A DNA stretch of 64,000 nt from Telmatospirillum siberiense (GTDB lineage: Bacteria; Pseudomonadota; Alphaproteobacteria; Rhodospirillales; Magnetospirillaceae), in NCBI RefSeq assembly GCF_002845745.1, contig NZ_PIUM01000002.1, forward strand, positions 248,001-312,000. The letters are read 5' to 3'. Shown here piece after piece: positions 28,272 to 58,742 of this stretch. A model generated the notes under the pieces. That model did not search any database and was not told the origin of the DNA. It worked only from the letters and a program-made list of their open reading frames with translations. Both the position numbers and the translations under genes were made by a program. How positions within the stretch are numbered: position 1 is the first letter of the stretch; each line of letters starts with the position of its first letter.

Positions 28272-28685
28272 CTAAGACAGCCCCGCCCCGTCGGCGTGGC
28301 CCGCCTTCCTTCGCCGCCGGCCGTCCGGCGATCGGCTGTGATAGACATAAAGAAAGATCAGGCCCGCCGGCGCGATGAAAACGGCCACGAACCAGCACAT
28401 CCACATGGTGAGGAATTTGAAGAGCAGGAGAACGAGGGCGTTCATATAGAACTTGTTCCTGCCCAGGATGAAACTCACCAGGCCTTCATAGGCGAAGCGG
28501 GAATAGGGATAGAGCAGGGTATTGGCGACGACGACCAGCCAGGCGTGAGGCGTCACGGTGGGCGGATGCGGACAGTTCACCAGGATCAGGATGAAGATCC
28601 CCGGAAAGATCAGGGCGAAGACGAACTGCCGGAAATAATAATAGGCCGACAGTCCCCCGAAGGTCTTGGCGATCACCGAACGCAT
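28272..28685 (-). CDS. Hypothetical small integral membrane protein
   Basis: A 137-residue protein I do not recognise. Three or four hydrophobic segments are visible: FRQFVFALIFPGIFILILV, HAWLVVVANTLLYPY, NALVLLLFKFLTMWMCWFVA and APAGLIFLYVYH. A basic tail (RRRRK) follows. Start ATG 28685 has a purine-rich AAGGGGGG upstream; the longer frame to 28811 runs back into a repeat element. Its promoter must lie within or beyond that repeat. No neighbour hints at function. Confidence 0.65.
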   Translation of the reverse strand: MRSVIAKTFGGLSAYYYFRQFVFALIFPGIFILILVNCPHPPTVTPHAWLVVVANTLLYPYSRFAYEGLVSFILGRNKFYMNALVLLLFKFLTMWMCWFVAVFIAPAGLIFLYVYHSRSPDGRRRRKAGHADGAGLS

Positions 28686-28707
28686 CTCGGCCCCCCTTAT
28701 GGCCCCT

Positions 28708-28858
28708 AATACCAACTCCCGGTGATCGGAACCGATCACCTCTGCCCTCAATCGCCGGGCGGGTTTCTCCGAAACCCTGGGCTTCGCGCCAATGATGGCG
28801 CGGGCCCTCAATGGGCCAGACCAAGTTTCGATGAGTTATCCTCATCGAAACTTGGTAT
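28708..28858. repeat. 150-bp element with terminal inverted repeats (copy 2)
   Basis: Same layout as 22944-23096: TAATACCAA left end, TTGGTATTA right end, end hairpins at 28721-28740 and 28820-28856 (perfect 16-bp stem) and a central GGGTTTC-tcc-GAAACCC. The right end supplies the TAA stop of the monooxygenase gene. Base changes against copy 1 are compensated in the stems. Confidence 0.85.
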
Positions 28859-29172
28859 TACGACGTGATTTCCTGCACCACGTCGAATCCTTCGAACTGC
28901 GGCGGCCCCAGATACAGGCCGGAGGAGCGGCTGGTGCCGCCATGGGCGCGGCGGAAGGCTTCCGAGCGGGTCCAGTCCTCGAAATGTTGGCGCGACTCCC
29001 AGACGGTGTGGGAGGCGAACAGGACGTAATCGTCGGCGGCCGGTCCGCGCAGCAGGTGAAAGGCGATGAAGCCGGGAAGGCCGGGCAGATGGCTGTCCCG
29101 CTCCTTCCAGATCCGCTCGAATTCGTCTTCCTTGCCGATGGTGATGCGGAAGCGGTTCATCGCGATAAACAT
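28858..29172 (-). CDS. Antibiotic-biosynthesis-monooxygenase (ABM) family protein, IsdG/HmoB-like
   Basis: A 104-residue ferredoxin-like-fold protein of the ABM superfamily. The residues that mark heme-degrading members are all present in order: Asn6 (MNRFRI), Trp near residue 67 (FEDWTRSEAF) and His near 77 (RRAHGG). It could cleave heme or act as a small cofactor-free monooxygenase. It is monocistronic; its stop codon lies in the border of a repeat element, showing that the insertion fixed the 3' end. Confidence 0.78.
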   Translation of the reverse strand: MFIAMNRFRITIGKEDEFERIWKERDSHLPGLPGFIAFHLLRGPAADDYVLFASHTVWESRQHFEDWTRSEAFRRAHGGTSRSSGLYLGPPQFEGFDVVQEITS

Positions 29173-29263: not shown

Positions 29264-29445
29264 CCCTTAAGCCCGAGCGGCGCTTGAGCCCGCTGGAGCG
29301 GAGCGGCAGCGTCATATGAAACTAAGGGATTGGAGCGATTATTTCGCGACAAGCCCTTAAGCCCGAGCGGCGCTTGAGCCCGCCGGAGCGGAAGCGTCAT
29401 ATGAAACTAAGGGATTGGAGCGATTATTTCGCGACAAGCCCTTAG
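29264..29445 (-). repeat. Dispersed repeat family B, two tandem units
   Basis: Unit 1 (29264-29353) and unit 2 (29354-29438) differ mainly by a 5-bp indel. Each holds GCCCGAGCGGCGCTTGAGCC, CATATGAAACTAAGGGATTG and GGAGCGATTATTTCGCGACA. The array abuts and partly includes the nuoN stop codon, so it forms the 3' end of the nuo operon transcript. Confidence 0.85.
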
Positions 29446-30869
29446 CGGATCACCCCTTGGCCGGCGGCGATGGCCAGGTCGAAGACCGGGCTGGGCAGCA
29501 GGCCGAGGATCAGCACGACGGCGCTCAAAATTCCGGCGCCGACAAGGCTGAAGGCGCTGGTGTCGGGTTCGGCCGAGCCGGCGGCCACGGTTTCCTCGGT
29601 ATAGGCGTGGCGGACCAGCGACAGATAGTAGTAGATGGCGAAGGCGCTGTTCACCGCCAGCGTGATCACCAGCCAGTTGTAGCCGTGGTTCCAGGCCGAG
29701 GTGATGAGGAACAGCTTGCCGATGAAGCCGACCGACGGCGGCAGACCGACCAGGGCGAAGGCGCCGACGGCCAGCGCGAAGGCTAGCACCGGGGCCCGCT
29801 TGTAAAGCCCGTTCAGATCGTCGAGCTTGAGATTGCGTCCGTCGGACGCGACGCGGCTGACCACCCAGAAGGCCAGCAGATTCATCGCCACATAGGCCAG
29901 CGCGTAGAAGGCCGCCGCCGCCATCCCCTCGGCGGTGCCGGACACCAGGCCGACCATCACATAGCCAGCATGGGCCACCGAGGAAAAGCCCAGGATCCGC
30001 TTCACATCCTTCTGGGCCAGCGCGCTCAGATTGCCCAGCGTCATCGAGATGGCGCCCAGCCAGGCCAGCAGGGTGGTGATCTCCAGGCCCGGCGTCAGGA
30101 AGGCCGACAGCCGCACCAGCACCACCACGGCGCCCAGTTTGGGCAGGGTGGCGGCGAAGGTCGCCGTCTCGTTGCTGGTGCCCTGATAGACGTCCGGGCA
30201 CCAGAAATGGAAGGGAAACAGCGCCAGTTTGTAGAACATCCCGCCCAGGAACAGCGCCAGGCCGATGACCGCCTGCGGCGAGTTGGCCCAGGTCCAGGAT
30301 TTGCCCGTCAGTTCGGCGATGTAGGTGGTGTGCTGGCCGGCCAGCACGTAGGACAGGCCGTAAAGGGCCAGCGCCGTGGCCACCGCGCCGAACAGGATGT
30401 ATTTGATGCCCGCTTCCGCCGCGCCCTTGTCGCGGGCGCGCAGCGAAATCACCGTATAGAGGCTGTAGGACGACAGTTCCAGGGCCAGATAGAGGGTGAA
30501 CAGCTCGGTGGAGGAGGAAAGCAGCATCAAGCCTTCCGCCGACAGGGCCAGGAACAGGAAATAATCGCTGCGCTTGTTCTCGGGCAGGGTCGGCTGGCGC
30601 GAGGCGTTGGAGACGGTGACGAAAAAGCCGATGGCGATGGCCAGTTTGAAGAACTGCGACAGCGCGTCGACCTGGTAGACGTCATGGAACAGCAGTCCGC
30701 GCGCCGGGAAGCCGGCGACGGCGGCGACGATGCCCAGGGCGGCGAACAGCGGAACCCAGCGGCCGGGGCGGGGTCCCTTGGCGCCGTCGCCCATGCTTTG
30801 CAGGAACAGCGCCAGAATCAGCAGAAACTGGAAGAGTTCCGGAATGATCAAGGCCGGATGCAAATTCAC
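29442..30869 (-). CDS. nuoN: Complex I antiporter-like membrane subunit NuoN
   Basis: A 475-residue polytopic subunit of NADH-quinone oxidoreductase-type complex I, in the proton-pumping arm next to NuoK. Characteristic segments are SVAHAGYVMVGLVSGTAEG, the broken-helix lysine FYKLALFPFHFWCPDVYQG and PSVGFIGKLFLI. It is last gene of a 13-gene operon. The 3' end runs into a tandem repeat. Confidence 0.95.
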   Translation of the reverse strand: MNLHPALIIPELFQFLLILALFLQSMGDGAKGPRPGRWVPLFAALGIVAAVAGFPARGLLFHDVYQVDALSQFFKLAIAIGFFVTVSNASRQPTLPENKRSDYFLFLALSAEGLMLLSSSTELFTLYLALELSSYSLYTVISLRARDKGAAEAGIKYILFGAVATALALYGLSYVLAGQHTTYIAELTGKSWTWANSPQAVIGLALFLGGMFYKLALFPFHFWCPDVYQGTSNETATFAATLPKLGAVVVLVRLSAFLTPGLEITTLLAWLGAISMTLGNLSALAQKDVKRILGFSSVAHAGYVMVGLVSGTAEGMAAAAFYALAYVAMNLLAFWVVSRVASDGRNLKLDDLNGLYKRAPVLAFALAVGAFALVGLPPSVGFIGKLFLITSAWNHGYNWLVITLAVNSAFAIYYYLSLVRHAYTEETVAAGSAEPDTSAFSLVGAGILSAVVLILGLLPSPVFDLAIAAGQGVIR

Positions 30870-30881
30870 GACGCTCTCTCC

Positions 30882-32420
30882 CTAGTTTTTCGTGGCCGGC
30901 GCAACGGCGCCGGCAAGGCCGGCGAGGGCGTTCGCCGGAACATGGTCCAGCACCGCCACCCGGCGCTGGTCGTAATCGGCCAACAGCTTGTCGACCGAGG
31001 GGGTGATCATCTGGAAGAACAGGCTGGGCGCCAGGCCGATGTAGAAGACCATCACCGCCGGCACCACCAGGAACAGCCATTCGCGGGGGCTGAGATCGCT
31101 CCACTCCTTGGCCGCCGACGGCTGGCCCCAGGCCAGCTTGAGGCCGACGCGGAACATGTAGGCGGTGGACAGCAGGGCGCCGGGCACCAGCAGCAGGCCG
31201 ACCAGCAGGCTATGCTGGAAGGCGCCGACGAAGACCAGGATCTCGCCGACGAAGCCGTTGGTCGCCGGGAAACCGAAGGAGGCCAGCGAGAACAGGCCCC
31301 AGAAGAACATGAAGGCCGGCATATATTTGCCCAAGCCCAGGATCTTCTTGATCTCGCGGCTGTGGCTGCGCTCGTAGACGGCGCCGATCATCATGAACAG
31401 GCCGCCGGTCACCACGCCGTGGTTCAGCATCTGGAACAGCGCGCCTTCGACGCCCCGCTGGTTGAACAGGAAGATGCCCAGCGTGACGAAGCCCATATGG
31501 CCGACCGAGGAATAGGCGACCAGCTTCTTGATGTCGCTCTGGCCCAGGGCCACCGCGCCGCCGTAGAGGATCGAGGCCACCGAAACGACGATCATCATCG
31601 GCGCGAAATATTCACTGGCCGCCGGTGTCAGCGGCAGGCAGAAGCGCAGGAAGCCGTAGGTTCCCATCTTCAGCAGGATGGCCGCGAGGATGACCGATCC
31701 GGCAGCCGGGGCCTGCACATGGGCGGCCGGCAGCCAGGTGTGGAAGGGGAACATCGGCACCTTGATGGCGAAGGCCAGGGCCATAGCCAGGAAGCACAGG
31801 ATCTGGAAGCGGAAGCCGAAGGTCCGTTGCATCAGTTCGGGGATCGAGAAGGTGCCGCCCTCGATGCGGAAGGCGACGATGGCGACCAGAAGCAGGGTCG
31901 AGCCGGCCAGCGTGTAGAGGAAGAACTTGATCGAGGCGTACCGGCGCTGATCGCCGCCCCAGACGGCGATCAACAGATACATCGGGATCAGCATGGCTTC
32001 CCAGAAGACGTAGAACAGCACCAGATCCATGGCGGTGAAGACGCCGATACAGGCCGAGGTCATCACCAGCAGGCAGAAATGGAACTCCTTCGTCCGCTTG
32101 GCGATGCCGGTCCAGGAACACAGCACGCAGAGCGGCAGGGTGGCCAGGGTCAGCCAGACCATCAGGATGCTGATGCCGTCGACCGCCAAGTAATATTGCA
32201 GACCCCACTGCGGCACCCAGGACAGGCGCTCGACGAACTGGAAGTCGGCGCCCATGCGGAAAGCCGTCAGCGGCAACGCCAGGACGATTTCGAGAAGGGA
32301 GGCGGCCAGGGTGAATTTGCGCACCAGCCCGTCGCCCTTGATGAAGAACAGAGCCGCCGCCGCCAGAAGCGGCAGGACGATCAGGCTGCTGAGAACCGGA
32401 AAGGGGAAAACCAACGCCAT
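30882..32420 (-). CDS. nuoM: Complex I antiporter-like membrane subunit NuoM
   Basis: A 512-residue pump subunit. Conserved pieces: FYVFWEAMLIPMYLLIAVWG (Glu of TM5), AIKVPMFPFHTWLPAAHVQA (Lys of TM7), YSSVGHMGFVTLGIF and FPATNGFVGEILV. These are hallmark NuoM residues, so this is the conventional NuoM of the operon rather than the extra pump. ATG 32420 has AAGGAG very close (two bases) upstream; GTG 32423 is the alternative. Confidence 0.96.
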   Translation of the reverse strand: MALVFPFPVLSSLIVLPLLAAAALFFIKGDGLVRKFTLAASLLEIVLALPLTAFRMGADFQFVERLSWVPQWGLQYYLAVDGISILMVWLTLATLPLCVLCSWTGIAKRTKEFHFCLLVMTSACIGVFTAMDLVLFYVFWEAMLIPMYLLIAVWGGDQRRYASIKFFLYTLAGSTLLLVAIVAFRIEGGTFSIPELMQRTFGFRFQILCFLAMALAFAIKVPMFPFHTWLPAAHVQAPAAGSVILAAILLKMGTYGFLRFCLPLTPAASEYFAPMMIVVSVASILYGGAVALGQSDIKKLVAYSSVGHMGFVTLGIFLFNQRGVEGALFQMLNHGVVTGGLFMMIGAVYERSHSREIKKILGLGKYMPAFMFFWGLFSLASFGFPATNGFVGEILVFVGAFQHSLLVGLLLVPGALLSTAYMFRVGLKLAWGQPSAAKEWSDLSPREWLFLVVPAVMVFYIGLAPSLFFQMITPSVDKLLADYDQRRVAVLDHVPANALAGLAGAVAPATKN

Positions 32421-32426
32421 CACTCC

Positions 32427-34214
32427 TTAACCCAGGTACCAGACCAAGCCGAAAATCAGAAGGAAGAGCACGCCGGTCATGGCGAGATAGTTCTGCAGAT
32501 TGCCGCTTTGCAGCTTCGCGCCCAGCCGTCCGACGTCCGACACCGTGATGGCGGACCCGTCGACCATGCAATCGATCACCGAGCGGTCGAACCAGGCGCT
32601 GACCCACCCCAGGACTTTCAGGGCGTTCAGGCCGATCACGCGGTAGACCTCGCTCCACAGGCCGTCGATCCAGGCGATCGGCCGGCAGATGACGAACAGC
32701 AGGGCCTTGCCGATCAGACGATAGAAATAATCGAAGTCGAGATTGACGCCCGGATGGGTGACGAGGAGGCCGCGCAGCAGATAGGTGGCCAGACCGGCGA
32801 AGCCCAGCAGGAGCAGCGCCTGCAAGACGTTCCACGCCGCCCAGGGCTCGTAGGGCACGTCCACCGCATAGGGCAGGAAGTGGTAGAGCATGTCGGGATG
32901 GACGCCTTGGGCGATGCACAGGACGGCGGCCAGGGCCATGCCGGCATACATGTTCCAGGGCAGGGGCTTCCAGACCGGTTCCGGCCCGGCGTCGGCCGGA
33001 CGGCGGCGCCAGAAGACGAAATAGGGAAGCCGGATGCCCACGGCGATGAAGGTGCCGACCGTCGCCACTTCGAGGGCCAGGGCGATCGCCGTATGGTGCG
33101 CGGCGGCGGTGCCGGCGATGGTCATCGTCTTGGTGACGAAGCCGTTGAACAGCGGCATGCCGGAAATCGACAGCGAGCCCACGGTGAAGAAGAGGGTGAT
33201 CCACGGCAGGCGGGAGGCCAGGCCGCCCAGCTTTTCCAGCCGGTCGGTGCCCAAACCCTGGATCAGGCAGCCGATGCTCATGAACAACAGGCTTTTGTAA
33301 AGGATGTGGGCGTAGGCGTGGGCGGCGGCGCCGTCCAGGGTCATCGCCGTGCCGACGCCGATGCCGACCGCCATGTAGCCGACCTGCGAGATGATGTCAT
33401 AGGCCAGGATCCGCCGGGCGCTGTTGGCGATGATGGCATGACCGACACCATAAACCGCCATCACCGCGCCGGCCACGGCCAGGATCTCCCAGCCGGCGAA
33501 GCCGCGGGCCAGCACATAGACCGCCGTCTTGGTGGTGAAGGCGCACATGAAGACCGCGCCGGCCACGGTGGCGCGCGGATAGGCGTCCGGTAGCCAAGCA
33601 TGCAGCGGCACCACGGCGGCGTTCACGCAGAAGCCGATGAGGATCAGCCAGTCGTAGAGGGCGGCGCCGTCGGCCGGGATATGGTCGAAGGCGAAACTGC
33701 CGGTGGCCTGGTGGCGCAGCAGCAGTCCACCCAGCAGGAACAGTCCGCCGACGGTATGGAAAAGGAAATAACGGAAGCCGGCCAGCGTCGATTCCCGCGA
33801 CCGGTTCAGGAAAATCAGGAAGGTCGAGCCGATGCTCATCAGCTCCCAGAAGACGAACAGGCTTAGGTAGTCGCCGGCGAAGACCGAGCCGAAGCTGCCC
33901 GCCACATAGAGCGAGGCGGCGATGTGGCTGCCCTTGTCGGGGACGTTCAGCGCATAGGTCATGCCGATCAGCGACATCACGGCGAAGACCTGGGCGAAGA
34001 TCAGCGACAGCCGGTCGACGCGGCCCAGGATCACTTGCTCGCCCAGATAGGGCAGCACCGCGTGAACCCCGGGCGTCATGGTGAAGACGCTCCAGAGGGC
34101 GATCACCGGCGGGATCAGCAGCAGCCATTTCCATTGCCGTCCGGGCAGGAACGGCAGGATCACGGCGAGGACCAGAAAGCCCAGGCTGGGATGGAGGAAG
34201 CTAGATGTCGCCAT
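32427..34214 (-). CDS. nuoL: NuoL/MrpD-like antiporter subunit with C-terminal lateral-helix region
   Basis: A 595-residue pump subunit. The core has VFWELMSIGSTFLIFLNRS, VNAAVVPLHAWLPDAYPRA and ISQVGYMAVGIGVG. Unlike NuoM and NuoN it continues beyond the core for about 115 residues (FDYFYRLIGKALLF, WFDRSVIDCMVDGSA, LQSGNLQNYLAMTGVLF), the arrangement of the NuoL lateral helix plus anchor. It is as close to Mrp antiporter subunit D as to textbook NuoL. Its start overlaps the stop of the preceding 85-residue gene by 14 bases. Confidence 0.9.
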   Translation of the reverse strand: MATSSFLHPSLGFLVLAVILPFLPGRQWKWLLLIPPVIALWSVFTMTPGVHAVLPYLGEQVILGRVDRLSLIFAQVFAVMSLIGMTYALNVPDKGSHIAASLYVAGSFGSVFAGDYLSLFVFWELMSIGSTFLIFLNRSRESTLAGFRYFLFHTVGGLFLLGGLLLRHQATGSFAFDHIPADGAALYDWLILIGFCVNAAVVPLHAWLPDAYPRATVAGAVFMCAFTTKTAVYVLARGFAGWEILAVAGAVMAVYGVGHAIIANSARRILAYDIISQVGYMAVGIGVGTAMTLDGAAAHAYAHILYKSLLFMSIGCLIQGLGTDRLEKLGGLASRLPWITLFFTVGSLSISGMPLFNGFVTKTMTIAGTAAAHHTAIALALEVATVGTFIAVGIRLPYFVFWRRRPADAGPEPVWKPLPWNMYAGMALAAVLCIAQGVHPDMLYHFLPYAVDVPYEPWAAWNVLQALLLLGFAGLATYLLRGLLVTHPGVNLDFDYFYRLIGKALLFVICRPIAWIDGLWSEVYRVIGLNALKVLGWVSAWFDRSVIDCMVDGSAITVSDVGRLGAKLQSGNLQNYLAMTGVLFLLIFGLVWYLG

Positions 34215-34458
34215 AGAAGTCTTCTTTGCGGGCGATGAGAGGACGGACGATCTTTTCGAGGATCAGCAGCAGGACGAAGCCCACGACCAATCCGAAGGCG
34301 GCGAAGGCGCCGGGATAGGCATCCCAGCCGAAATGCGCCTCTTCCGGGCGGATCATCAGGTTGAGGCCGAGAAGCAGGACGAGGGCGGCGAAAAACAGGT
34401 TCCGCCACAGCCTGTGCTGTTTTCCCAGCCGATCGAACAAGGCGCCGAGACTGCTCAT
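34201..34458 (-). CDS. Small two-helix membrane protein within the nuo operon
   Basis: An 85-residue protein without a family I can name. Two hydrophobic segments (LFFAALVLLLGLNLMI and AFGLVVGFVLLLILEKIV) flank a short loop with Glu, Asp and Trp, and a charged tail (RPLIARKEDFYGDI) follows. Start ATG 34458 has AGGAA six bases upstream; ATG 34464 would leave no spacing. It sits between two antiporter-like genes and overlaps nuoL, so it is translated with the complex and may be an accessory subunit. Confidence 0.75.
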   Translation of the reverse strand: MSSLGALFDRLGKQHRLWRNLFFAALVLLLGLNLMIRPEEAHFGWDAYPGAFAAFGLVVGFVLLLILEKIVRPLIARKEDFYGDI

Positions 34459-34467
34459 GGCCATTTC

Positions 34468-35955
34468 CTAATAGTTCCCGAAGACGCGGATGAAGTCCTG
34501 AAACATCTGCGGATAGAAGCCGAGGATCAGGGAGACCAGGGCCGTGAAGCAAAGCGGCACGACCATGGTGAGCGGCGCTTCCCGGACATGGTCGATGTCG
34601 CTCACCGGCGCCTTGAAGAAGGCGCGGTAGAAGATCGGCACGAAATAGCCGGCGTTGAGTGCCGTCGAGGCGAGAAGGGCGATCATCAGGGCGACCTGGC
34701 CGGCCTGCAGGGCGCCGTTGACCAGATACCATTTGGAGACGAAGCCGGCGACCGGGGGCATGCCGATCATCGACAGCGAGGCCAGGCCGAAGGCGCCGAA
34801 GGTCCAGGGCATCTTGCGCCCCATGCCGTTCATCTGGCTGATCTTCTTCTGGTGCGTCACCACATAGATGGCGCCGGCGGCGAAGAACAGGGTGATCTTC
34901 GAAAAGGCGTGGTTGGCGATATGCAGCAGCCCGCCCTGCACGGCCATCGGGGTCAGGAGCGAGACGCCGATGATGACGTAGGAGAGCTGGCTGACCGTCG
35001 AATAGGCGAGCCTGGCCTTGATGTCGTCCTTGGTCAGAGCGATCAGCGAGGCGACGACGATAGTGAAGGCGGCCAGATAGGCGGTGGGCAGGTCGAGCCC
35101 CAGACTGTGCATCGTCTCGACGCCGAATCCCGACAGGATGACCCGGCTCAGCGAGAAGACGCCGGCCTTGACCACGGCCACGGCATGCAGAAGGGCGGAG
35201 ACCGGAGTCGGCGCCACCATGGCCGAGGGCAGCCAGTTGTGGAAGGGCATCAGGGCGGCCTTGGCCAAGCCGCAGAGGAACAGCACGTAGGTCAGCCGCA
35301 CCAGATTGGGATGATCCGCCACCACCTGGGCCGGGAACATGCCGTCGGTCACCGAGACGAGATTCATCTCCAGCGTGCCGCACAGCACATAGGTCAGCAC
35401 CATGGCCGGCAGCAGGAACAGCTTCGAGGTGCCCATCAGATAGACCAGATATTTCCGCGCGCCGGCAAAGCCTTCCGCGTCCTGGTGATGGGCGACCAGG
35501 GGATAGGTGAAGACGGTGATCACCTCGTAGAAGAGGTAGAGCGTGAAGATGTTGGCGGCGAAGGCGACGCCGAGGGCGCCGAAGATGGCGATGGCGAAGC
35601 AGAAATAGTAGCGCGTCTGGGCGTGTTCCTTGAGGCCGCGCATGTAGCCGATGTTGTAGCTGGTGGCCAGGCCCCACAGGAAGGGGGCGATCAGGGCGAA
35701 GACCATGCCCAGTCCGTCCAGCGCGAAGGTCACCGTAATCCCCGGAAGGATGGTGAACATCTGGTAGGAATAGACGTGGCCGGCGAGGATGCCCGGCACG
35801 AAGGACAGCACCGAAAGGAAGGTCAGCGCGGCGGCGACGAAGGAGACGGCCTCGCGCCGGTTCTCGTTGCCCCGGTTGAACCAGATGGCGAAGGGCGCCA
35901 GCGCGGTGAGGCCAAGCGGCAGGAGCAGGCGGGCGCTTTCGATGGAAGCGGGCAT
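34468..35955 (-). CDS. Extra antiporter-like subunit (MrpD/NuoM-type) inserted between nuoK and nuoL
   Basis: A 495-residue proton/cation antiporter-like protein. Key residues are kept: LYLFYEVITVFTYPLVAHH (Glu), GLAKAALMPFHNWLPSAMVA (Lys), LLHAVAVVKAGVFSLSR, STVSQLSYVIIGV and HAFSKITLFFAAGAIYV. It is the fourth pump-type subunit of this operon, where a normal complex I has three. It follows nuoK by four bases. Related annotations would read 'monovalent cation/H+ antiporter subunit D'. It probably lengthens the membrane arm and raises ions pumped per electron pair. Confidence 0.9.
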   Translation of the reverse strand: MPASIESARLLLPLGLTALAPFAIWFNRGNENRREAVSFVAAALTFLSVLSFVPGILAGHVYSYQMFTILPGITVTFALDGLGMVFALIAPFLWGLATSYNIGYMRGLKEHAQTRYYFCFAIAIFGALGVAFAANIFTLYLFYEVITVFTYPLVAHHQDAEGFAGARKYLVYLMGTSKLFLLPAMVLTYVLCGTLEMNLVSVTDGMFPAQVVADHPNLVRLTYVLFLCGLAKAALMPFHNWLPSAMVAPTPVSALLHAVAVVKAGVFSLSRVILSGFGVETMHSLGLDLPTAYLAAFTIVVASLIALTKDDIKARLAYSTVSQLSYVIIGVSLLTPMAVQGGLLHIANHAFSKITLFFAAGAIYVVTHQKKISQMNGMGRKMPWTFGAFGLASLSMIGMPPVAGFVSKWYLVNGALQAGQVALMIALLASTALNAGYFVPIFYRAFFKAPVSDIDHVREAPLTMVVPLCFTALVSLILGFYPQMFQDFIRVFGNY

Positions 35956-35959
35956 GGAG

Positions 35960-36268
35960 CTATTCTTTCAACGTCGAGATGGCGTCGGTTTCGACGGTGC
36001 CGAAACGGCGCGAGACCACGATGATGATGGCGAGAACCAGGGTGGCCTCGGCGGCGGCCAGGCCCATCACCAGAAGCGTTCCCAACTGGCCGAGGACGGC
36101 ATTGGCCTCGGTGAGCTGGGCGGCGGCGACGATGGACAGTCCGGCGCCGTTCAGCATCAGCTCGACACTGATCAGCATGCCGACCAGGGTGCGGCGCACC
36201 ACGATGCCGTAAAGGCCGATCACCAGCAGCAGAAGGGCGACCAACTGATAGAGGGTGAGGGCGCTCAT
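35960..36268 (-). CDS. nuoK: Complex I membrane subunit NuoK
   Basis: A 102-residue three-helix subunit. The two channel glutamates lie in LISVELMLNG (Glu36) and GLAAAEATLVLAII (Glu74). It overlaps nuoJ by four bases (ATGA), so translation is coupled. Confidence 0.96.
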   Translation of the reverse strand: MSALTLYQLVALLLLVIGLYGIVVRRTLVGMLISVELMLNGAGLSIVAAAQLTEANAVLGQLGTLLVMGLAAAEATLVLAIIIVVSRRFGTVETDAISTLKE

Positions 36269-36774
36269 TGCTTTTCCTTCCGTTCCCAGGTCAGGACGAC
36301 GGCGCCTGACATGGCGACCAGGAGAATCAGGGAAATAAGCTCGAAGCTTAATGAGTACTGTTCGAGAAGGCCGGTTCCCAGGGCCGGCAATCCGACTTCC
36401 ACCGGCAGATCCCTGGCGGCGCCGGGATGGCGGATCAGCACCAGGGCGAGGCCGACGGCCGGTACCAATCCGGCGAGCAGGGCATTGAAGCGGTGCCTGA
36501 TGGTGACGGGCCGGGCCTCCTCGCCCTCGCCATCGGCGCGGGTCAGCATGACCGAGAAGAAGACCAGCACGCAGACGGCGCCGACATAGATCAGGATCTG
36601 CATGAAGGCCAGGAACGGCGTGGCCAGCAGCAGATACATCCCGGCGACGCCGAAGAAGGTGACGACCAGCCCGACCAGGGCGCGGACCAGACTCTTGCTG
36701 CTCACCGCGACCAGGGCGCCGCCCAGGATGATCAGGGCGTGAAGGGCGAAAGCGATTTTTGCCAGAATTTCCAT
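36265..36774 (-). CDS. nuoJ: Complex I membrane subunit NuoJ
   Basis: A 169-residue subunit with five helices. The conserved TM3 region ATPFLAFMQILIYVGAVCVL, which holds the pi-bulge of complex I, is intact. It lies between nuoI (2-base gap) and nuoK (4-base overlap). Confidence 0.95.
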   Translation of the reverse strand: MEILAKIAFALHALIILGGALVAVSSKSLVRALVGLVVTFFGVAGMYLLLATPFLAFMQILIYVGAVCVLVFFSVMLTRADGEGEEARPVTIRHRFNALLAGLVPAVGLALVLIRHPGAARDLPVEVGLPALGTGLLEQYSLSFELISLILLVAMSGAVVLTWERKEKQ

Positions 36775-36776
36775 GA

Positions 36777-37337
36777 TCAGCGCTCTTGGAGCTTTTGAAC
36801 CTGTTCCGGCGTCGGCTTCAGCGACCCCGGATAGGGAATGAGCAGGTTGTGCAGGAAGGCATCACGGCTGGTGCCAACGGCATTGAGTTCGTGCGAGAAG
36901 GTGAGGCAGCGCGGCGGACAGGCTTCGACGCACATGCCGCACAGGCTGCACAGCGAGAAATCGTTGATCCAGATCACCGGCTCGCGCGGGGCCACCGGGC
37001 GCTCGACTTCCTCGCCGCGCGCTTCGGCCTCCTGGAAGGTCTTTTCCTGCTCGGGCGTGATGACCGGCGCCGGGGCCTTGACCACGGTGATGCATTGGGA
37101 CGGACAGGCGCCGACGCAGATCATGCAGGCCGTGCACTTGGATTTGGTCGCATCCCGGGGATGGGGCACCAGGGCGATGGGGCCGCGATAGCTGTCGGTG
37201 AGATCGGTGGGGACCTGCTCGCGCGGGTAATGCACCGTCACCTGGGGCCGGGTGAAGTTGCGGCCGGTGATGCGCAGCCCGACCACCAGGCTCCACAGAT
37301 CGCCGATCGGCTCGAGGACTTTTCTGATCATGCTCAT
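36777..37337 (-). CDS. nuoI: Complex I 8Fe-8S ferredoxin-like subunit NuoI
   Basis: A 186-residue subunit carrying two [4Fe-4S] clusters, N6a and N6b type. Cysteine sets are CTACMICVGAC (68, 71, 74, 78) and CSLCGMCVEAC (130, 133, 136, 140), with the partner cysteines shortly after. With no NuoEFG in the operon this subunit is the outermost visible electron entry point, so it may accept electrons from a ferredoxin or another docking partner. GGAA lies five bases before ATG 37337. Confidence 0.95.
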   Translation of the reverse strand: MSMIRKVLEPIGDLWSLVVGLRITGRNFTRPQVTVHYPREQVPTDLTDSYRGPIALVPHPRDATKSKCTACMICVGACPSQCITVVKAPAPVITPEQEKTFQEAEARGEEVERPVAPREPVIWINDFSLCSLCGMCVEACPPRCLTFSHELNAVGTSRDAFLHNLLIPYPGSLKPTPEQVQKLQER

Positions 37338-37357
37338 GATGTTCCGCGAAGCCTTTC

Positions 37358-38338
37358 CTAGAAGACCTTCATGAGGAAGACCGTCCCCAGAAGATTGAGG
37401 GTCGCCAGGGGGATGAGCCATTTCCAATTGATGTTGAGCAACTGGTCGAAGCGTACGCGGGGATAGGTCCAGCGAACCCAGATGAACAAGGCGAGCAAGG
37501 CATAGACCTTGATCATGAACCACCACACCCCGTCGATCCCCGGACCTTTCCAGCCGCCGAGGAACAACGCCGTGCAGACGCCGGAAACGACGACCATGTT
37601 GGCGTATTCGGCCATGAAGAACATGCCGAAACCCATGCCCGAATATTCGGTGTGGAAGCCGGCGGTCAGTTCGGACTCGGCTTCCGGCAGATCGAAGGGC
37701 GCGCGGTTGGTCTCGGCGAAGGCGCAGACCAGGAAGATCAGGAAGGCCAGCGGCTGGGTGACGATGTTCCACTGCCAGGGCCAGGAGCCCTGTCCCTCGA
37801 CGATGGTCGAGAGATTGAGGCTGCCCTTCTGGAAGGCGATGCAGAGCACGGCCAGCAACAGCGGGATCTCGTAGGCGACCGATTGCGAGACGGTGCGCGC
37901 CGCGCCCAGCAAGCCGAACTTGTTGTTCGACGCCCAGCCGGCCAACATGGTCGACAGCACGCCGATGCCGGCGAAGGCCAGGATCAGTAGCAGGCCGAGA
38001 TTGACCTCCTGGACCGTCACCACCGGCCCGAAGGGCATCGGCACGAACAGCAGCAGGACCGGAAACACGGCGAGCACCGGGGCCATCCAGAACAGGATGG
38101 GATCGGCGTTGGTCGGCGTGAAGAGCTGCTTGCCGATCAGTTTTCCGGCGTCGGCCAGAGGTTGGAGAATTCCATGCGGACCGACCTCGAAGGGGCCGGG
38201 ACGGCGCTGGATATGCCCGGCGCCCTTGCGCTCGGCATAGACCAGGACCAGCACATGGATGCCGACGAAGGCCATGATCGCCACCATGCCGATGACGATA
38301 TGGATGAGTTCGGAGGGAATTGCCGCGAGGAAAGTCAT
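37358..38338 (-). CDS. nuoH: Complex I membrane subunit NuoH
   Basis: A 326-residue subunit forming the quinone-chamber entrance with NuoB and NuoD. Conserved pieces are YAERKGAGHIQRRPGPFEVG, AETNRAPFDLPEAESELTAG and WVRWTYPRVRFDQLL. ATG 38338 has AGGTGA seven bases upstream; GTG 38347, overlapping the nuoD stop, is an alternative. It follows nuoD directly where nuoE-F-G would lie in the usual gene order. Confidence 0.96.
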   Translation of the reverse strand: MTFLAAIPSELIHIVIGMVAIMAFVGIHVLVLVYAERKGAGHIQRRPGPFEVGPHGILQPLADAGKLIGKQLFTPTNADPILFWMAPVLAVFPVLLLFVPMPFGPVVTVQEVNLGLLLILAFAGIGVLSTMLAGWASNNKFGLLGAARTVSQSVAYEIPLLLAVLCIAFQKGSLNLSTIVEGQGSWPWQWNIVTQPLAFLIFLVCAFAETNRAPFDLPEAESELTAGFHTEYSGMGFGMFFMAEYANMVVVSGVCTALFLGGWKGPGIDGVWWFMIKVYALLALFIWVRWTYPRVRFDQLLNINWKWLIPLATLNLLGTVFLMKVF

Positions 38339-38343
38339 GGGAT

Positions 38344-39507
38344 TCACCTGTCGATCTCGGGAATGACCAGATCCAGGCTTCCCAGGATGGCCACGGCGTC
38401 TGCCAGGATGGTGCCCCGCGCGGCTTCGGCGTAGGCGCTTAGGTTGGAGAAGCAGGGCGAGCGCAGCTTGACCTTGTAGGCGAACTCCCCGCCATTGCTG
38501 ACCAGATGGACGCCGATCTTGCCGCGCGCCCCTTCAACGGCGAAATAGGATTCGCCCTTGGGCGCCTTCCACAGGACCTTCGGCGCGTTTTTCATCAGCA
38601 CCGGTCCGGCGGGAAGGGCGGCCAGGGCCTGCTCGATGATGTTCAGGCTCTGCTCCATCTCGTCCATGCGCACCAGGTAGCGGGCCATGGAATCTCCCTC
38701 GGTGCGGACGGCGACCTGCCAGTCCAGACCCTCGTAGATGGGGAAATGCTCCGCCTGGCGAACGTCGTAGGCCAGCCCCGAACCGCGCGCCACGGGACCG
38801 GTGACGCCATAGCGCCGGCACATGTCGGCGTCCATGACGCCGACGCCTTCCAGGCGCTTCCTCAGGATGACGTTATCGGTAACCAGATCCCGGTACATCG
38901 GCAGACGCTCGCGCATCTTCGGGATGAAGTCGCGGACGGTCTCGATGAACTTCTCGCTCAGGTCCGTGCAGACACCGCCGATGCGGAAGGAGGAATGGGT
39001 CAGCCGCGATCCCGTGGGCATCTGGAGGATGTCCAGCAGATGTTCGCGATCGTCGAAGGCGTACATGATGGGGGTGATCGCCCCCAGATCCAGCGTGAAG
39101 GCGCCCCACCACAGCAGATGCGAGGTGATCCGGTTGATCTCGGTGGTGATGACGCGAATATATTGCGCGCGCTCGGGCACCTCGAAGCCGGCCAGCCGTT
39201 CGACGGCGCCGACGAAAGCCCAGTTCCAGCCCAGCGCGTGGCCATAGTCGATGCGCCCGGTGTTGGGGATGAACTGGGAGAGGGTTTTCACCTCGCCCAT
39301 CTTCTCGTGCATGCGATGCAGGTAGCCCAGCACCGGTTCGGCGCGGATCACATATTCGCCGTCCAGCTCGACGATGACCCGCAAGACGCCGTGGGTCGCC
39401 GGATGTTGCGGGCCGAGGTTGAGGATCATCGTGTCCTCGCGGGCGCCCTTCTCGAAGTTCCGATTGTAGAAGTCACCCTCGGTCACGCCCAATTGTTCGT
39501 AATGCAT
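38344..39507 (-). CDS. nuoD: Complex I 49-kDa subunit NuoD
   Basis: A 387-residue peripheral-arm subunit at the quinone site. Seen are LNLGPQHPATHGVLRV, LGYLHRMHEKMGEVKT, WWGAFTLDLGAITP and the invariant C-terminal Asp of SLDLVIPEIDR. It is a separate polypeptide rather than a NuoCD fusion. ATG 39507 has AGGAA six bases upstream. It lies 34 bases after nuoC. Confidence 0.97.
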   Translation of the reverse strand: MHYEQLGVTEGDFYNRNFEKGAREDTMILNLGPQHPATHGVLRVIVELDGEYVIRAEPVLGYLHRMHEKMGEVKTLSQFIPNTGRIDYGHALGWNWAFVGAVERLAGFEVPERAQYIRVITTEINRITSHLLWWGAFTLDLGAITPIMYAFDDREHLLDILQMPTGSRLTHSSFRIGGVCTDLSEKFIETVRDFIPKMRERLPMYRDLVTDNVILRKRLEGVGVMDADMCRRYGVTGPVARGSGLAYDVRQAEHFPIYEGLDWQVAVRTEGDSMARYLVRMDEMEQSLNIIEQALAALPAGPVLMKNAPKVLWKAPKGESYFAVEGARGKIGVHLVSNGGEFAYKVKLRSPCFSNLSAYAEAARGTILADAVAILGSLDLVIPEIDR

Positions 39508-39541
39508 GGTCGTTCCTGTCGATCCTTGAGGCCAGTGCCCG

Positions 39542-40069
39542 TCAAGCCTCGCCCGTCTCGGCCAATTTGGCCGCCGGGGTGAGCAGGGTGAAATCCGCCG
39601 CCGCCCGCAGGGGCTCGGCCGGCGGGAACAGATCCCACAGGAAGGCGCGTTGCGCCTCGGTCTTCTGCAGGGGATGCTCGGTCATGTCGGGCGCCAGCAG
39701 CAGCGGCACCGGGTTGGGATTGCCGGTGAAGGTGATGCCGTAGAAGTCGGTGGTTTCGCGTTCATGCCATTCGGCGCCCTGGTAGACCGAGGCGATGGAT
39801 GGCAGTTCCGGCGCCTCGTGCGAGGTGAGCACGCGCAAGGCGACGCGGCCGGGACTGTCTATATGATCGAAGTGATAGACCGCCAGATAGCCTTCCTTGG
39901 CGTCGATGGCGGTGAGATCCTCTAGGAAGTAGTTGGCGCGATAGAGCAGTTTGACGGCGGGCAGCAGATCGGATTGCGCCAGGAAAACCGACCAGGCGAG
40001 CCCGGTCTTGGCCGGATCGCATTTGACGAGGTACTGAACCTTGATGGTGCCGAACAGGGAGTCGATCAT
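39542..40069 (-). CDS. nuoC: Complex I 30-kDa subunit NuoC (divergent)
   Basis: A 175-residue peripheral-arm subunit. The signature region reads [19 protein letters not shown], recognisable but shortened and altered against the usual ERE-W-D-GI-F-HPDLRRIL pattern; the HPL-K tail is partly kept ([12 protein letters not shown]). ATG 40069 has GGGAGAG five bases upstream and overlaps the nuoB stop (ATGA). The divergence fits a specialised second-type complex I rather than the respiratory housekeeping one. Confidence 0.9.
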
Positions 40070-40623
40070 TTCGTCTCTCCCGACGCTTCCGACGCTTCCG
40101 GCCACCAGCGGCGCCCCGTGAGCTTCTTCTGGATTTCGAAAAGTCCTTCCAGCAGCGCCTCGGGCCGGGGAGGGCAGCCGGGAACGTAGACGTCGACGGG
40201 GATCAGCTTATCGACGCCCTCGACGATGCCGTACTGGTTCTCGAACTTGAAGGGTCCGCCCGAAATGGCGCAGTTGCCGAGCGCCAGGACGAAGCGCGGC
40301 GCCGGCATCTGCTCGTAAAGGCGAACCACCGAAGGGGCCATCTTCTTGTTGACCGTGCCGGCGACGATCAGGAGATCGGACTGGCGGGGCGACGGCCGGA
40401 ACACTTCGGCACCGAAGCGCGAGATGTCGAAGCGGGCCATGCTGGTCGCCATCATCTCGATGGCGCAGCAGGCCAGGCCGAAGGTCATCGGCCACAGCGA
40501 CATGGCGCGACAGATGTCGAGGACGTCATTGACCGCCTTGATCCGGACGACCGGGGGGACGATATGGGCGCCGCCCTCGGTCTGATAATCGGGGGCGATC
40601 AGAGTCGGATCTTGCGTGGCCAC
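40066..40623 (-). CDS. nuoB: Complex I subunit NuoB ([4Fe-4S] N2)
   Basis: A 185-residue subunit carrying cluster N2, the electron donor to quinone. The four ligands are Cys52 and Cys53 ([10 protein letters not shown]), Cys118 ([10 protein letters not shown]) and Cys150 ([11 protein letters not shown]). Start GTG 40623 has AAAGGGG eight bases upstream and lies within the nuoA 3' end (25-base overlap). It is coupled to nuoC by ATGA. Confidence 0.97.
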
Positions 40624-40979
40624 GTGAACACCCCTTTCGCCCAGAAATAGACAACCGCCAGACCAAGGAAGAACAGGAAGATCAGAATTTCGAAGAAGGC
40701 GTCCCAACCGACGGTCCACCGATATTGGGTAGCGACCGGGAAGAGGTAGAGGACGTCGACGTCGAAGGCGAGGAAGATCAGTGCGTAGACGTAGTAGTTG
40801 ACGCCGAACCGGCCCCGGGCATTGCCCAGGGGAACGATGCCGCACTCGTAGGGCATGCCCATGTCTCCACCTTTCGCCTTCGGGGCGAGAAGGGATGCCA
40901 GGGCTAGTGGGCCACCGGCAAAAAGGGCGCCCAGTACGAGAAAAAGTATGATGGCGAGATGCAGCCAACTGAAGACCAT
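40599..40979 (-). CDS. nuoA: Complex I membrane subunit NuoA
   Basis: A 126-residue three-helix subunit. The loop [17 protein letters not shown] and the acidic TM2 [13 protein letters not shown] are typical. It is the first gene of the operon; an AT-rich 468-bp spacer upstream should contain the promoter. Confidence 0.96.
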
Positions 40980-55791: not shown

Positions 55792-57798
55792 ATGATCATC
55801 GGGTCCGCCCTGGCCGGCCTTCTGCTGCTCGGTCTTTGCGCCATTCTCCTTCACCGGCTGACGCGCGTGCACGAACTGATCTATGCCGGCTGTCTGGTGG
55901 CGACCGTGGTCCTGGTCGGCGACGGCCTCTGGCATATCGTCCAGTCCGGTCACGAGGAGGTCCCCTCGGTCGTGCTGCCTTTCGGTCTGCCCTGGCTGCA
56001 CGCCCATTTCCGTCTCGACAGCCTGTCCGCCTTTTTCCTGGTGGCGATCAATTTTCCGGCGGCGCTGGCCAGCCTGTTCGGCATCGGTTACGGCGGGCAT
56101 GTCCCGCACCCCGGTCGCGTGACCCCGCTGTTCCCGCTTTTCCTGTTCGGCATGAACGGCGTTCTGATCGCCGACGACGCCTTCGTCTTTCTGGTGTCCT
56201 GGGAATTCATGTCGCTGTCGTCCTGGCTGCTGGTGCTTTCCGATCATACCAACGAGGAAGCGCGCAAGGCCGCGATGGTCTATCTGGTGATGGCGGTGTT
56301 CGGCACCTTCTGCCTTTTGCCCGCCTTCGGCCTGCTGGCCGGTTCCGGCGGCGCCTACACCTTCGCCGCCATGCGCGCCGCCCATCTGCCGGCCCTGGCC
56401 GGCAGTCTGGTGGTGTTGCTGGCCCTGCTGGGGACCGGTTCGAAGGCCGGCCTCGTCCCTTTGCATGTTTGGCTGCCCCTGGCCCATCCCGCCGCCCCCA
56501 GTCACGTTTCCGCCCTGATGTCGGGTGTGATGACCAAGGTCGCCATCTACGGTCTGATCCGCATCCTTTATGACCTGCGGGGCGATGTCGGATGGCAGTG
56601 GGGGTTCGTCCTGATGGTGGTGGGGGCCGTTTCGGCGGCGATGGGCGTGCTTTACGCGCTGATGCAGCGGGATTTGAAGACGCTGCTCGCCTATTCGACG
56701 GTCGAGAACGTCGGCATCATCTTCATCGCGCTGGGATTGGCCCTCGCCTTCCGCGACCATGGGGAGCTCGCGCTGTCCGCCCTGTCGCTGGTGGCAGCAC
56801 TTTACCACGTGGTCAACCATGCCCTGTTCAAAACCCTGCTGTTCCTTGGGGCGGGGGCCATTCTCCAGGCGACCGGCGAGCGCAATCTCGACAGGTTGGG
56901 CGGTCTGCTGAACAGGATGCCGATAACCGGTTTCACCTTCCTGATCGGCGCCTGCGCCATTTCCGCCCTGCCGCCGCTGAACGGCTTCGTCTCGGAATGG
57001 CTGGTCTTCCAGAGCCTGTTCAAGGGACCGACGGTGGCCCATTGGGCCATGCGCTTCGGCGTTCCGGTGGTCGGCGTCGCCATGGCCCTGGCCGCGGCCT
57101 TCGCCGCGACCTGCTTCGTGCGCGCTTTCGGCATCGCGTTTCTTGGCCGTCCCCGCACGCCCGAGGCCCGGCATGCCCGCGAAGTTCCCTTGAGCATGCA
57201 AGTGGCCATGGCCGTCCCGGCCTTCTTCTGCCTTTGCCTCGGCGTCTTTCCGGTGACGGTGACCTCCGGCATCGCCACGGCGGTCGAGCCCCTGGTGAGG
57301 GTCAAGCTTCCGGCCGCCATGCTTGGGTGGCCCTGGCTGTCGCCGGTCAGTCTGACGGCGGGATCCTATTCGGCGACCATGGTGTTGCTGACCGGCGCCG
57401 CCCTGATGGTCACCACCTTGCTGGTCGTCCATCATTTCGGCACGCGCAAGATCAGGCGCTTCCCCCTCTGGGATTGCGGCCATCCCGAGGATATCGTCAA
57501 CGCTCAATATTCGGCCGACAGTTTCGCCCAGCCCCTGCGCCGCGTGTTCGGCAGCGTGGTGTTCCGGGCCCGGGAGGAGGTGGAGATGCCTCCGCCCGGC
57601 GAAATGGTCCCGGCGAGGTTCTCGGTCACAATGATCGATCCGGTGTGGACCGGCCTCTATCTCCGCATCGTCAGGATCGTCGATGCCATCGCCGACCGGG
57701 TCAATGTCCTGCAGTTCCTCACCGTCCGGCGCTATCTGCTGATGATGTTCCTGACGTTGGTGCTTCTCCTTCTCGTCGTCGCGGTGCGCCAGCAATGA
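55792..57798 (+). CDS. hyfB: Hydrogenase-4/Ehr-type antiporter-like membrane subunit HyfB
   Basis: A 668-residue subunit of a hydrogenase-4-like membrane complex. The pump core has FLVSWEFMSLSSWLLVLSDH (Glu), GSKAGLVPLHVWLPLAHPAA (Lys), YSTVENVGIIFIALG and HALFKTLLFLGAGAI. Beyond about residue 480 follow the HyfB/HycC-specific FPLWDCGHPEDIVNAQYSAD segment and a terminal membrane helix. ATG 55792 has AAAGG seven bases upstream. It overlaps hyfC by four bases (ATGA). Confidence 0.95.
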   Translation: MIIGSALAGLLLLGLCAILLHRLTRVHELIYAGCLVATVVLVGDGLWHIVQSGHEEVPSVVLPFGLPWLHAHFRLDSLSAFFLVAINFPAALASLFGIGYGGHVPHPGRVTPLFPLFLFGMNGVLIADDAFVFLVSWEFMSLSSWLLVLSDHTNEEARKAAMVYLVMAVFGTFCLLPAFGLLAGSGGAYTFAAMRAAHLPALAGSLVVLLALLGTGSKAGLVPLHVWLPLAHPAAPSHVSALMSGVMTKVAIYGLIRILYDLRGDVGWQWGFVLMVVGAVSAAMGVLYALMQRDLKTLLAYSTVENVGIIFIALGLALAFRDHGELALSALSLVAALYHVVNHALFKTLLFLGAGAILQATGERNLDRLGGLLNRMPITGFTFLIGACAISALPPLNGFVSEWLVFQSLFKGPTVAHWAMRFGVPVVGVAMALAAAFAATCFVRAFGIAFLGRPRTPEARHAREVPLSMQVAMAVPAFFCLCLGVFPVTVTSGIATAVEPLVRVKLPAAMLGWPWLSPVSLTAGSYSATMVLLTGAALMVTTLLVVHHFGTRKIRRFPLWDCGHPEDIVNAQYSADSFAQPLRRVFGSVVFRAREEVEMPPPGEMVPARFSVTMIDPVWTGLYLRIVRIVDAIADRVNVLQFLTVRRYLLMMFLTLVLLLLVVAVRQQ

Positions 57799-58742
57799 TC
57801 TCCTTCCTCTTCGGCGTCTTTCATACAGGGTTGGTGCTTGCGGCGGCGCCGCTCGTCATGGGAATCGTCCGCCTGACCAAGGCGCGCCTGCAGGGCCGGC
57901 GGGGGGCGTCGGTGCTGCAGCCCTACCGCGATCTGTGGCGACTGCTGCAAAAGGAATCGGTGGTGGCGGACTCGGCCTCCTGGCTGTTTCGCATCGCCCC
58001 TTATCTGGTGTTCGTTTCGGTCTGGCTGGCGGCGACCATCATGCCGACCTTCACCACCGACATGCTGCTGACGCCGGCGGCCGATTTGATCGCCCTGGTG
58101 GCGCTTCTCGGCACGGCGCGCTTTTTCACGGCGTTGGCCGGACTCGACGCCGGCACGGCCTTCGGCGGGTTGGGGTCGAGCCGCGAGATGTTCGTCGCCT
58201 CGATCGGCGAGCCGGCCATGCTGATGGTGATTTTCAGCCTGTCGCTGCTGACCCACACCACGTCGCCGGCCCAGATGGCCGCCTACGTGATGAGCGGGCA
58301 TGTCGGCATCGAGGTGTCGGCGGGATTGGCCCTGGCCGCCATGGTGATGGTCGCCATCGCCGAAAATGGCCGCATTCCGATCGACAATCCCACCACGCAT
58401 CTCGAACTGACGATGATCCACGAGGCCATGGTGCTGGAATATTCCGGCCGTCATCTGGCCTTGCTCGAAGCGGCGGCCATGGTCCGTCTGCTTCTCTTCA
58501 TGTCGATCATTTCCTGCCTGTTCTTCCCGTGGGGCATCGCCGGTCCCGACAGCGGCCTGCTGGAGGTGCTGTGGGGACTGGCCGCCTGGGCTCTCAAGGT
58601 CGGGCTGCTGGCCGTGGTGCTCGGTTATTTCGAGACCATGCTGGCCAAGATGCGGGTCTTCCTCATTGCCGATTTCCTGGGTGGCGCATTGTTGCTGGCC
58701 TTGCTGGCGACGATCTTTCTTTACGTGTCGGAGGCCGTGTGA
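57795..58742 (+). CDS. hyfC: Hydrogenase-4/Ehr-type NuoH-like subunit HyfC
   Basis: A 315-residue membrane subunit related to NuoH and HycD, linking the peripheral and membrane arms. Conserved pieces are RLTKARLQGRRGASVLQPYR, AENGRIPIDNPTTHLELTMI and HEAMVLEYSGRHLAL. It begins within the hyfB stop and ends within the hyfE start (GTGTGA), so translation is coupled across the cluster. Confidence 0.95.
   Translation: MISFLFGVFHTGLVLAAAPLVMGIVRLTKARLQGRRGASVLQPYRDLWRLLQKESVVADSASWLFRIAPYLVFVSVWLAATIMPTFTTDMLLTPAADLIALVALLGTARFFTALAGLDAGTAFGGLGSSREMFVASIGEPAMLMVIFSLSLLTHTTSPAQMAAYVMSGHVGIEVSAGLALAAMVMVAIAENGRIPIDNPTTHLELTMIHEAMVLEYSGRHLALLEAAAMVRLLLFMSIISCLFFPWGIAGPDSGLLEVLWGLAAWALKVGLLAVVLGYFETMLAKMRVFLIADFLGGALLLALLATIFLYVSEAV

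Follow-up and report, generated by a model that had tools for sequence, protein, structure and literature searches.

The window analyzed here, a 64,000-nucleotide stretch of the Telmatospirillum siberiense genome (contig NZ_PIUM01000002.1, positions 248,001 to 312,000), contains a 13-gene operon for a complex I that has no genes for an NADH module (nuoE, nuoF, and nuoG, together EFG) and that carries two Mrp-type antiporter-like subunits, P1 and P2, in place of NuoL. We think it probable, on balance, that the operon specifies a complex I of the deltaproteobacterial type, self-contained and NADH-module-free, that was acquired horizontally, and that it serves as a ferredoxin or flavodoxin:quinone oxidoreductase in which P1, NuoM, and NuoN pump and an altered P2 caps the membrane arm.

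The host genome (6,200,830 bases in 81 contigs, with completeness rated at 100% and contamination at 0.19%) carries the operon on the minus strand of a 392-kb contig, at positions 29,442 to 40,979 of the window. Open reading frames together with NCBIfam and Pfam scans gave the gene order nuoA-B-C-D-H-I-J-K-P1-x-P2-M-N. These scans agree with an earlier reading of the DNA made from its letters without database searches (the sequence-only reading), which had described an operon without nuoEFG and with an extra MrpD/NuoM-type protein and a small membrane protein. The small protein, x, is indeed present, but its length is 87 amino acids rather than 85, and the gene that had been called nuoL is P2, which comes second in an Mrp-type pair of subunits. 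Directly after nuoD comes nuoH; nuoE, nuoF, and nuoG are missing there and from the operon as a whole. All four large membrane proteins matched Proton_antipo_M (Pfam), with E values from 4e-44 to 3e-79. The genes are as follows.

40599..40979, minus strand: nuoA, 126 amino acids; NCBIfam NuoA-type matches under the cut-off; 83, 62, and 75% identity to loci L106, L107, and L115
40066..40623, minus strand: nuoB; TIGR01957 at 218 bits, above the cut-off; cluster N2 cysteines read by eye
39542..40069, minus strand: nuoC, ∼175 amino acids; Pfam Complex1_30kDa at 93.6 bits, above the cut-off; NCBIfam under the cut-off
38344..39507, minus strand: nuoD, 387 amino acids; NF004739 above the cut-off
37358..38347, minus strand: nuoH; NF004741 at 339 bits, above the cut-off
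36777..37352, minus strand: nuoI, 191 amino acids; Fer4 domains (Pfam); NCBIfam NuoI matches under the cut-off
36265..36774, minus strand: nuoJ, 169 amino acids; NCBIfam NuoJ-type matches under the cut-off; equal position in relatives
35960..36268, minus strand: nuoK, 102 amino acids; NF004320 above the cut-off
34468..35955, minus strand: P1, MrpD-like antiporter subunit, 495 amino acids; NF006236 at 797 bits, above the cut-off
34201..34464, minus strand: x, small membrane protein of 87 amino acids, between P1 and P2
32427..34214, minus strand: P2, second Mrp-type subunit in the place of NuoL, 595 amino acids
30882..32423, minus strand: nuoM, 513 amino acids; Pfam E value 2.8e-79; clusters with canonical NuoM in the pump tree
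29442..30869, minus strand: nuoN, 475 amino acids; Pfam E value 6e-62; clusters with canonical NuoN in the pump tree

The nuoB gene overlaps the end of nuoA and its start codon is uncertain; nuoC might instead begin at a GTG at 40105, which would lengthen it. The identities of NuoA, NuoC, NuoI, and NuoJ, all with NCBIfam matches below the cut-off, rest on Pfam for NuoC and NuoI and on position and similarity in relatives for NuoA and NuoJ. No NCBIfam or Pfam family matched x at an E value of 0.001. Two longer membrane helices are predicted in x, at residues 17 to 37 and 53 to 77, and its model reached a predicted local distance difference test score (pLDDT) of 83 and a predicted template modeling score of 0.56.

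A full canonical 14-gene nuo operon, A to N, is present on another contig (C33) of the same genome, and the gene content supports reading the window operon as a second complex I beside it, one without an NADH module of its own. Genes of the 51K family occur in four places. The gene on C33 is the canonical nuoF, that on C40 belongs to an Rnf locus (RnfC and RnfD above the cut-off), that on C44 encodes a NuoF-like protein adjoining a formate dehydrogenase alpha gene (above the cut-off), and that on C5 is RnfC-like, slightly under the cut-off, and adjoins microcompartment shell genes. Since the other 51K genes thus belong to Rnf, formate dehydrogenase, and microcompartment clusters, this genome search found no second NuoEFG, in line with the earlier claim that no NADH module is encoded here.

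Relatives were sought by scanning the contigs of GTDB species with a P1 alignment, and the best 80 loci were kept, many of them truncated by contig ends. The top-ranked locus, L106, is a sister from the same genus in a Rhodospirillales bin. Seventy-five of the 80 are labeled deltaproteobacterial, with Desulfovibrio kin among the top matches, and the remaining four outside the genus are labeled Acidobacteria, Proteobacteria, Pseudomonadota, and Verrucomicrobiia; P1 of the nongenus loci is 54 to 76% identical to that of the window. The full 13-gene set was found in 45 of these 80 loci (one being the genus sister), and the full EFG-less operon in all three genus sisters whose context was examined, which argues for conservation beyond chance. 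Within the best 80, nuoC and nuoD are adjacent without EFG in 62 of the 64 loci holding both, H adjoins D in 70 of 70, and x sits between P1 and P2 in 70 of the 77 loci that hold the pair.

A concatenated tree of D, H, P1, P2, M, and N (63 rows picked by the P1 search, 2,742 columns, a quick LG+G4 run rooted on four rows of the rhizobial "green" complex I described below) placed the window and its three genus sisters in one clade with a support of 100 by the Shimodaira-Hasegawa-like approximate likelihood ratio test. That clade is nested among the Desulfovibrionaceae and other deltaproteobacteria, with supports of 99 and 100. The nesting among deltaproteobacterial EFG-less operons points to horizontal transfer, and the operon apparently entered this alphaproteobacterial genus from kin of the sulfate reducers or other deltaproteobacteria. 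Base composition gives no hint of a recent transfer, the guanine-plus-cytosine content being 63.9% for the operon and 63.0% for the rest of the window. Among 61 relatives, P1 was found at 87 to 100% identity in four of the five genus genomes, including the window's own, and not in the fifth (0.9 Mb); beyond the genus the best match was 53%. A class-wide sample gave a P1-like match at 1e-100 in 98 of 385 genomes, the best outside the genus being 55%. Eighteen alphaproteobacterial contexts comprised 3 EFG-less sister operons, 4 of the green type (L091 to L094, with E and F seen in L091 only), and 11 of Mrp type without nuo redox genes. The last group (L095 to L105) consists of stand-alone operons in which P1 and P2 are mostly joined by a third antiporter-like subunit, and x was detected in 5 of the 11. 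In a careful P2 tree the green, deltaproteobacterial, and stand-alone P2 proteins join at an open fork, compatible with one capture of an Mrp module, two captures, or the reverse. A quick pump tree placed green P2 with that of Mrp but came with a long-branch warning and was not relied on for this point.

The antiporter-like subunits were compared at the columns of one alignment of the P1, P2, M, and N types, five green P2 rows included, with transmembrane helices (TM) named by homology. A lysine in TM7 paired with a glutamate in TM5 has been described as a key channel element (PMC7419157). The window P1 has Glu144 in TM5, Lys232 in TM7, Lys263 in TM8, and Lys408 in TM12. The TM7 column is lysine in all 88 P1, all 72 M, and all 67 N rows. 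In P2 it is asparagine in 80 of 80 rows, the five green ones among them, and the residue in the window is Asn198; the TM5 glutamate, TM8 lysine, and TM12 lysine of P2 are each kept in all but one row. With the TM7 lysine kept in P1 and replaced by asparagine in P2, P1 reads as a full antiporter-like subunit and P2 as an altered one. The asparagine is not peculiar to complex I, for among the best P2 matches from stand-alone Mrp-type operons it occurs in 9 of 11, with lysine in the other 2. NuoM has glutamate at TM12, as does the canonical NuoM of the host.

The sequence-only reading had likened the extra subunit to the duplicated NuoM of the complexes termed 2M. P1 and P2 do not cluster with NuoM in the pump tree, and they belong instead to an Mrp-like P1-x-P2 module that replaces NuoL; the top-ranked fold match of P2 was MrpA (7qru_A), with NuoL chains also listed. 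An AlphaFold2 model of P2 built with 49 P2 sequences (pLDDT of 89) showed a long helix of 74 residues at 495 to 568, with block confidence of 61 to 78, and an end helix at 573 to 594. The tail after TM12 has 238 residues, compared with 246 in the canonical NuoL of the host. By both the model and the tail length, the lateral helix of P2 is not longer than normal. In print, a lateral-helix insert measures 26 residues in Manganitrophaceae, is similar in the NuoL of Nitrospira 2M complex I, and is absent from the rhizobial green type (PMC9040806). On the pump tree and the unlengthened helix, a 2M complex I was rejected. Of the earlier expectation of four pumps and a longer arm, the four Proton_antipo_M proteins stand, while the missing lysine and the unlengthened helix weaken the rest. 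We speculate that x might be a bridge that would let a helix of normal length serve four subunits.

One conserved feature of the redox arm sets it apart from that of green and canonical complexes. In an alignment of 75 rows, where a gap run of at least 20 was scored as a loss, a segment of ∼24 residues is missing from window-type NuoD in 70 of 70 rows and present in the 4 green rows and 1 canonical row. The loss does not prove that docking of EFG was lost, since the segment is also missing in four loci that have NADH-type genes (L130, L131, L138, and L153). Against the PDB, NuoD scored best with NdhH of photosynthetic NDH-1, in four chains at 334 to 307 bits, and Thermus Nqo4 came after these at 290 bits. 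The cyanobacterial photosynthetic NDH-1 is described as using ferredoxin (PMC11238625), and an NdhH-like NuoD would fit a ferredoxin-type redox arm without proving one. Two further candidate marks of the family were rejected. The two 4Fe-4S motifs of NuoI are 62 residues apart, compared with 39 in the canonical NuoI of the host, and the spacing ranges from 35 to 71. The NuoD position of the tyrosine implicated in quinone binding holds tyrosine in 33 of 70 rows, and the aligned NdhH chains also lack tyrosine there. Two NifJ-type pyruvate oxidoreductases (above the cut-off) are encoded in the genome, in which no FrhB-type subunit was matched; a ferredoxin-like donor fits these findings, and an F420-type FrhB donor was rejected. 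A low-potential donor such as ferredoxin is probable, as had been argued from the lack of an NADH module.

From the gene content, the relatives, the nesting, and the residue and segment losses, we infer the following assembly, donor, direction, and stoichiometry. NuoB, NuoC, NuoD, and NuoI would make up the redox arm. The most likely electron donor is ferredoxin or flavodoxin in its reduced form, supplied for instance by pyruvate:ferredoxin oxidoreductase; electrons would enter at the 4Fe-4S clusters of NuoI and pass to quinone at NuoB/NuoD. The membrane arm, composed of A, H, J, K, N, and M with P1-x-P2 replacing NuoL, would export ions. Pumping would proceed via P1, M, and N, of which M and N look canonical at the columns examined, and P2 would cap the arm with its normal-length lateral helix. 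Since P2 is without the TM7 lysine, three complete channels are expected, not four.

Several points weigh against this account. The concatenated tree is a quick one, and some of its rows have odd composition. The pump residues were taken from alignments and not from a structure of the complex, and the TM8 column of NuoN is without lysine, as it is in the canonical NuoN of the host. At the presumed quinone-site position of NuoD, the window has leucine. Six relatives (L130, L131, L138, L153, L156, and L158) have NADH-type genes in the cluster, so a core of the window type may accept NADH input. These genes lie between C and D in 2 of the 64 loci (L130 and L131), upstream of D in L138 and L153, and downstream of N in L156 and L158, and L157 has a single NuoF-like piece; the loci fall at two separate places in the tree, L130/L131/L138 and L156/L158 with L157. 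No dedicated donor gene was seen beside the operon in the window. None of 11 window flank genes recurs in the sister flanks (0.2 to 5 kb a side; L088, L090, and L106), the sole match being a 22-residue piece of alanine dehydrogenase in L106, and flank families repeated among the best 80 loci are mostly common to Desulfobulbaceae. With neither a donor gene nor a recurring flank gene, ferredoxin as the donor stays an inference.

An unlikely alternative is that the complex runs mainly in reverse, with ion-motive force driving electrons from quinol to ferredoxin, which would then serve nitrogenase or other reductive metabolism; such a role has been published as a proposal for other extended complexes, namely Nitrospira 2M complex I and that of Manganitrophaceae. 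The host looks like a nitrogen-fixing phototroph. Three NifH genes scored above the nitrogenase cut-off (on C1, C35, and C81), with a fifth strong NifH-family match, on C9, outside the family scan, and a BchX gene for bacteriochlorophyll synthesis, also on C9, suggests phototrophy and hence a light-driven ion-motive force. The NifH genes and BchX would suit reverse operation, and a dedicated oxidizing partner is absent beside the operon. On the other hand, the Rnf locus on C40 offers another possible route to reduced ferredoxin, the forward direction is the one proposed for the EFG-less Nuo of Desulfovibrio (PMC4287179, PMC3608642), and an altered P2 adds no driving force if it is nonconducting. 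A broader proposal, which we consider unlikely, is that an Mrp-type module grafted on an EFG-less complex I forms a widespread, transferable ferredoxin:quinone ion pump in which P2 is a conserved nonstandard channel that, instead of moving a fourth proton, alters coupling or ion specificity (by way of sodium or a gated path, for example); here this pump would be reversible to supply ferredoxin.

It is decidedly unlikely that the complex borrows the canonical NuoEFG of C33 and acts as an NADH:quinone oxidoreductase with an alternative membrane arm. The genome does have one NuoEFG set, E and F accompany this arm in rhizobial green complexes, as does G in both stretches that reach it, and NADH-type genes are found in the clusters of a few deltaproteobacterial relatives. 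However, the NuoD segment kept in green and canonical proteins is missing throughout the window type, C adjoins D without EFG in nearly all loci (62 of 64), and the candidate genes belong to a separate 14-gene operon. That an 11-subunit complex I and an unrelated Mrp antiporter merely share an operon is very improbable: 11 of the 18 alphaproteobacterial contexts do have P1-P2 pairs with no nuo redox genes, and such stand-alone homologs go halfway toward the result that the sequence-only reading had named as refuting its claim, an extra subunit from an Mrp antiporter unrelated to complex I, but P2 is the only NuoL candidate, P1-x-P2 is placed between K and M inside complex I operons of rhizobia, deltaproteobacteria, and the window genus, and no separate Mrp B, C, E, F, or G gene was seen in the operon.

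The preferred reading, an EFG-less ferredoxin- or flavodoxin-linked complex with an altered P2, bears on how complex I conserves energy. Should the count of ions pumped depend on the antiporter-like subunits, a complex with four of them would be expected to pump more, and this family offers a natural test, with three subunits that have the TM7 lysine and a terminal one that is without it in every row examined. An energy-conserving core appears to have moved between phyla without its electron-input module, and a few relatives have different input genes. Such movement agrees with the view of complex I as a docking platform and bears on the link of ferredoxin to respiration and nitrogen fixation.

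Some further observations concern the relatives and the rest of the window. The insert at 2628-6430 of L130 encodes proteins resembling DmsB, NuoE, HoxU, and NuoF, the last with a 2Fe-2S-like domain at its front, all below the cut-off where scanned; HydB/HoxU-like NADH-type genes occur in the P1-x-P2 operons of L130, L131, and L156 (9102-13451), at two different positions, and L156 has a protein of 1,036 amino acids that joins a NuoF-like domain to a GltD-like one. In L145 (58-3049; Desulfobacterales), molybdopterin-type genes, formate-dehydrogenase-like by eye, and a 262-residue Fe-S protein lie upstream of nuoA as a possible alternative electron input; the NADH-type match of this locus is the molybdopterin-type gene, read as formate dehydrogenase. 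On the Bradyrhizobium sp. CB82 plasmid (L038, 13992-15528), nuoD stands alone and overlaps the ABM-domain gene that comes after it; the annotation listed for this 29-kb stretch, which is incomplete, shows no further nuo gene. After nuoN in the window (28272-29172, minus strand) come a 104-residue ABM-domain protein and a 179-residue protein, neither of which matches the available sister flanks. Large subunits resembling NuoD occur at five loci in the genome. The two CxxC pairs that a nickel site calls for are present in those on C75 and C26, and the one on C26 adjoins a formate dehydrogenase alpha gene (above the cut-off). Another belongs to a hydrogenase-4-like cluster of the window (55792-63000, plus strand), with a HyfB-like protein of 668 residues above the NCBIfam cut-off, further antiporter-like frames, and a NuoB-like frame; its large subunit of 506 residues has no CxxC pair, so the cluster is probably not a hydrogenase.

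Compared with known systems, the canonical 14-subunit complex has NuoE, NuoF, NuoG, and NuoL, which are absent here, and a stand-alone Mrp antiporter differs from P1-x-P2, which lies inside an operon with NuoB, NuoC, NuoD, and NuoI. EFG-less Nuo complexes are known in the sulfate reducers Desulfovibrio and Desulfobulbus (PMC4287179, PMC3608642). They resemble the window complex in the absent NADH module, in the ferredoxin proposed as donor (in Desulfovibrio), and in the grouping of P1 and of the concatenated tree; the window host differs in being alphaproteobacterial and in having its own canonical complex I, and the available excerpts of those accounts mention neither an Mrp-type module nor the P2 asparagine. 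Two loci of Solidesulfovibrio magneticus (L143 and L146) have the 13-gene operon without EFG in the available stretch; D. magneticus is described as having the full 14 nuo genes (PMC4046663). In the literature searched, outside which key papers lie, so that absence from print is not claimed, neither the EFG-less, P1-x-P2 combination nor the P2 asparagine was found described. An 11-subunit enzyme, nuoABCDHIJK...MN without EFG and likewise with ferredoxin as proposed donor (PMC11238625), has a single NuoL where the window has P1-x-P2. The 2M complexes share the four antiporter-like subunits, and that of Nitrospira moscoviensis is reported without NuoE and NuoF (PMC6606698, PMC9040806), but they have a second NuoM and a lengthened NuoL where the window has an unlengthened Mrp-type pair. 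In green complex I, two MrpD-like subunits replace NuoL (PMC9040806; see also PMC7415380, PMC4967309, and PMC5419562). Plasmids of Sinorhizobium meliloti, Phyllobacterium, and Ensifer have J-K-P1-x-P2-M-N followed by A-B-C-D-E-F; L035 lacks an annotation for B, and the stretches L036 and L037 take in the beginning of G. The arm J-K-P1-x-P2-M-N has the same gene order, and green P1 is 53 to 55% identical to that of the window (53 to 54% in these plasmids), but the green type has E and F (and G in L036 and L037), a different operon order, and the NuoD segment missing from the window. By gene content, then, the membrane arm of the window complex is of the green type and its redox arm is not, and we regard the complex as a real, conserved variant of EFG-less deltaproteobacterial complex I, with a green-type arm, that moved into an alphaproteobacterial genus.

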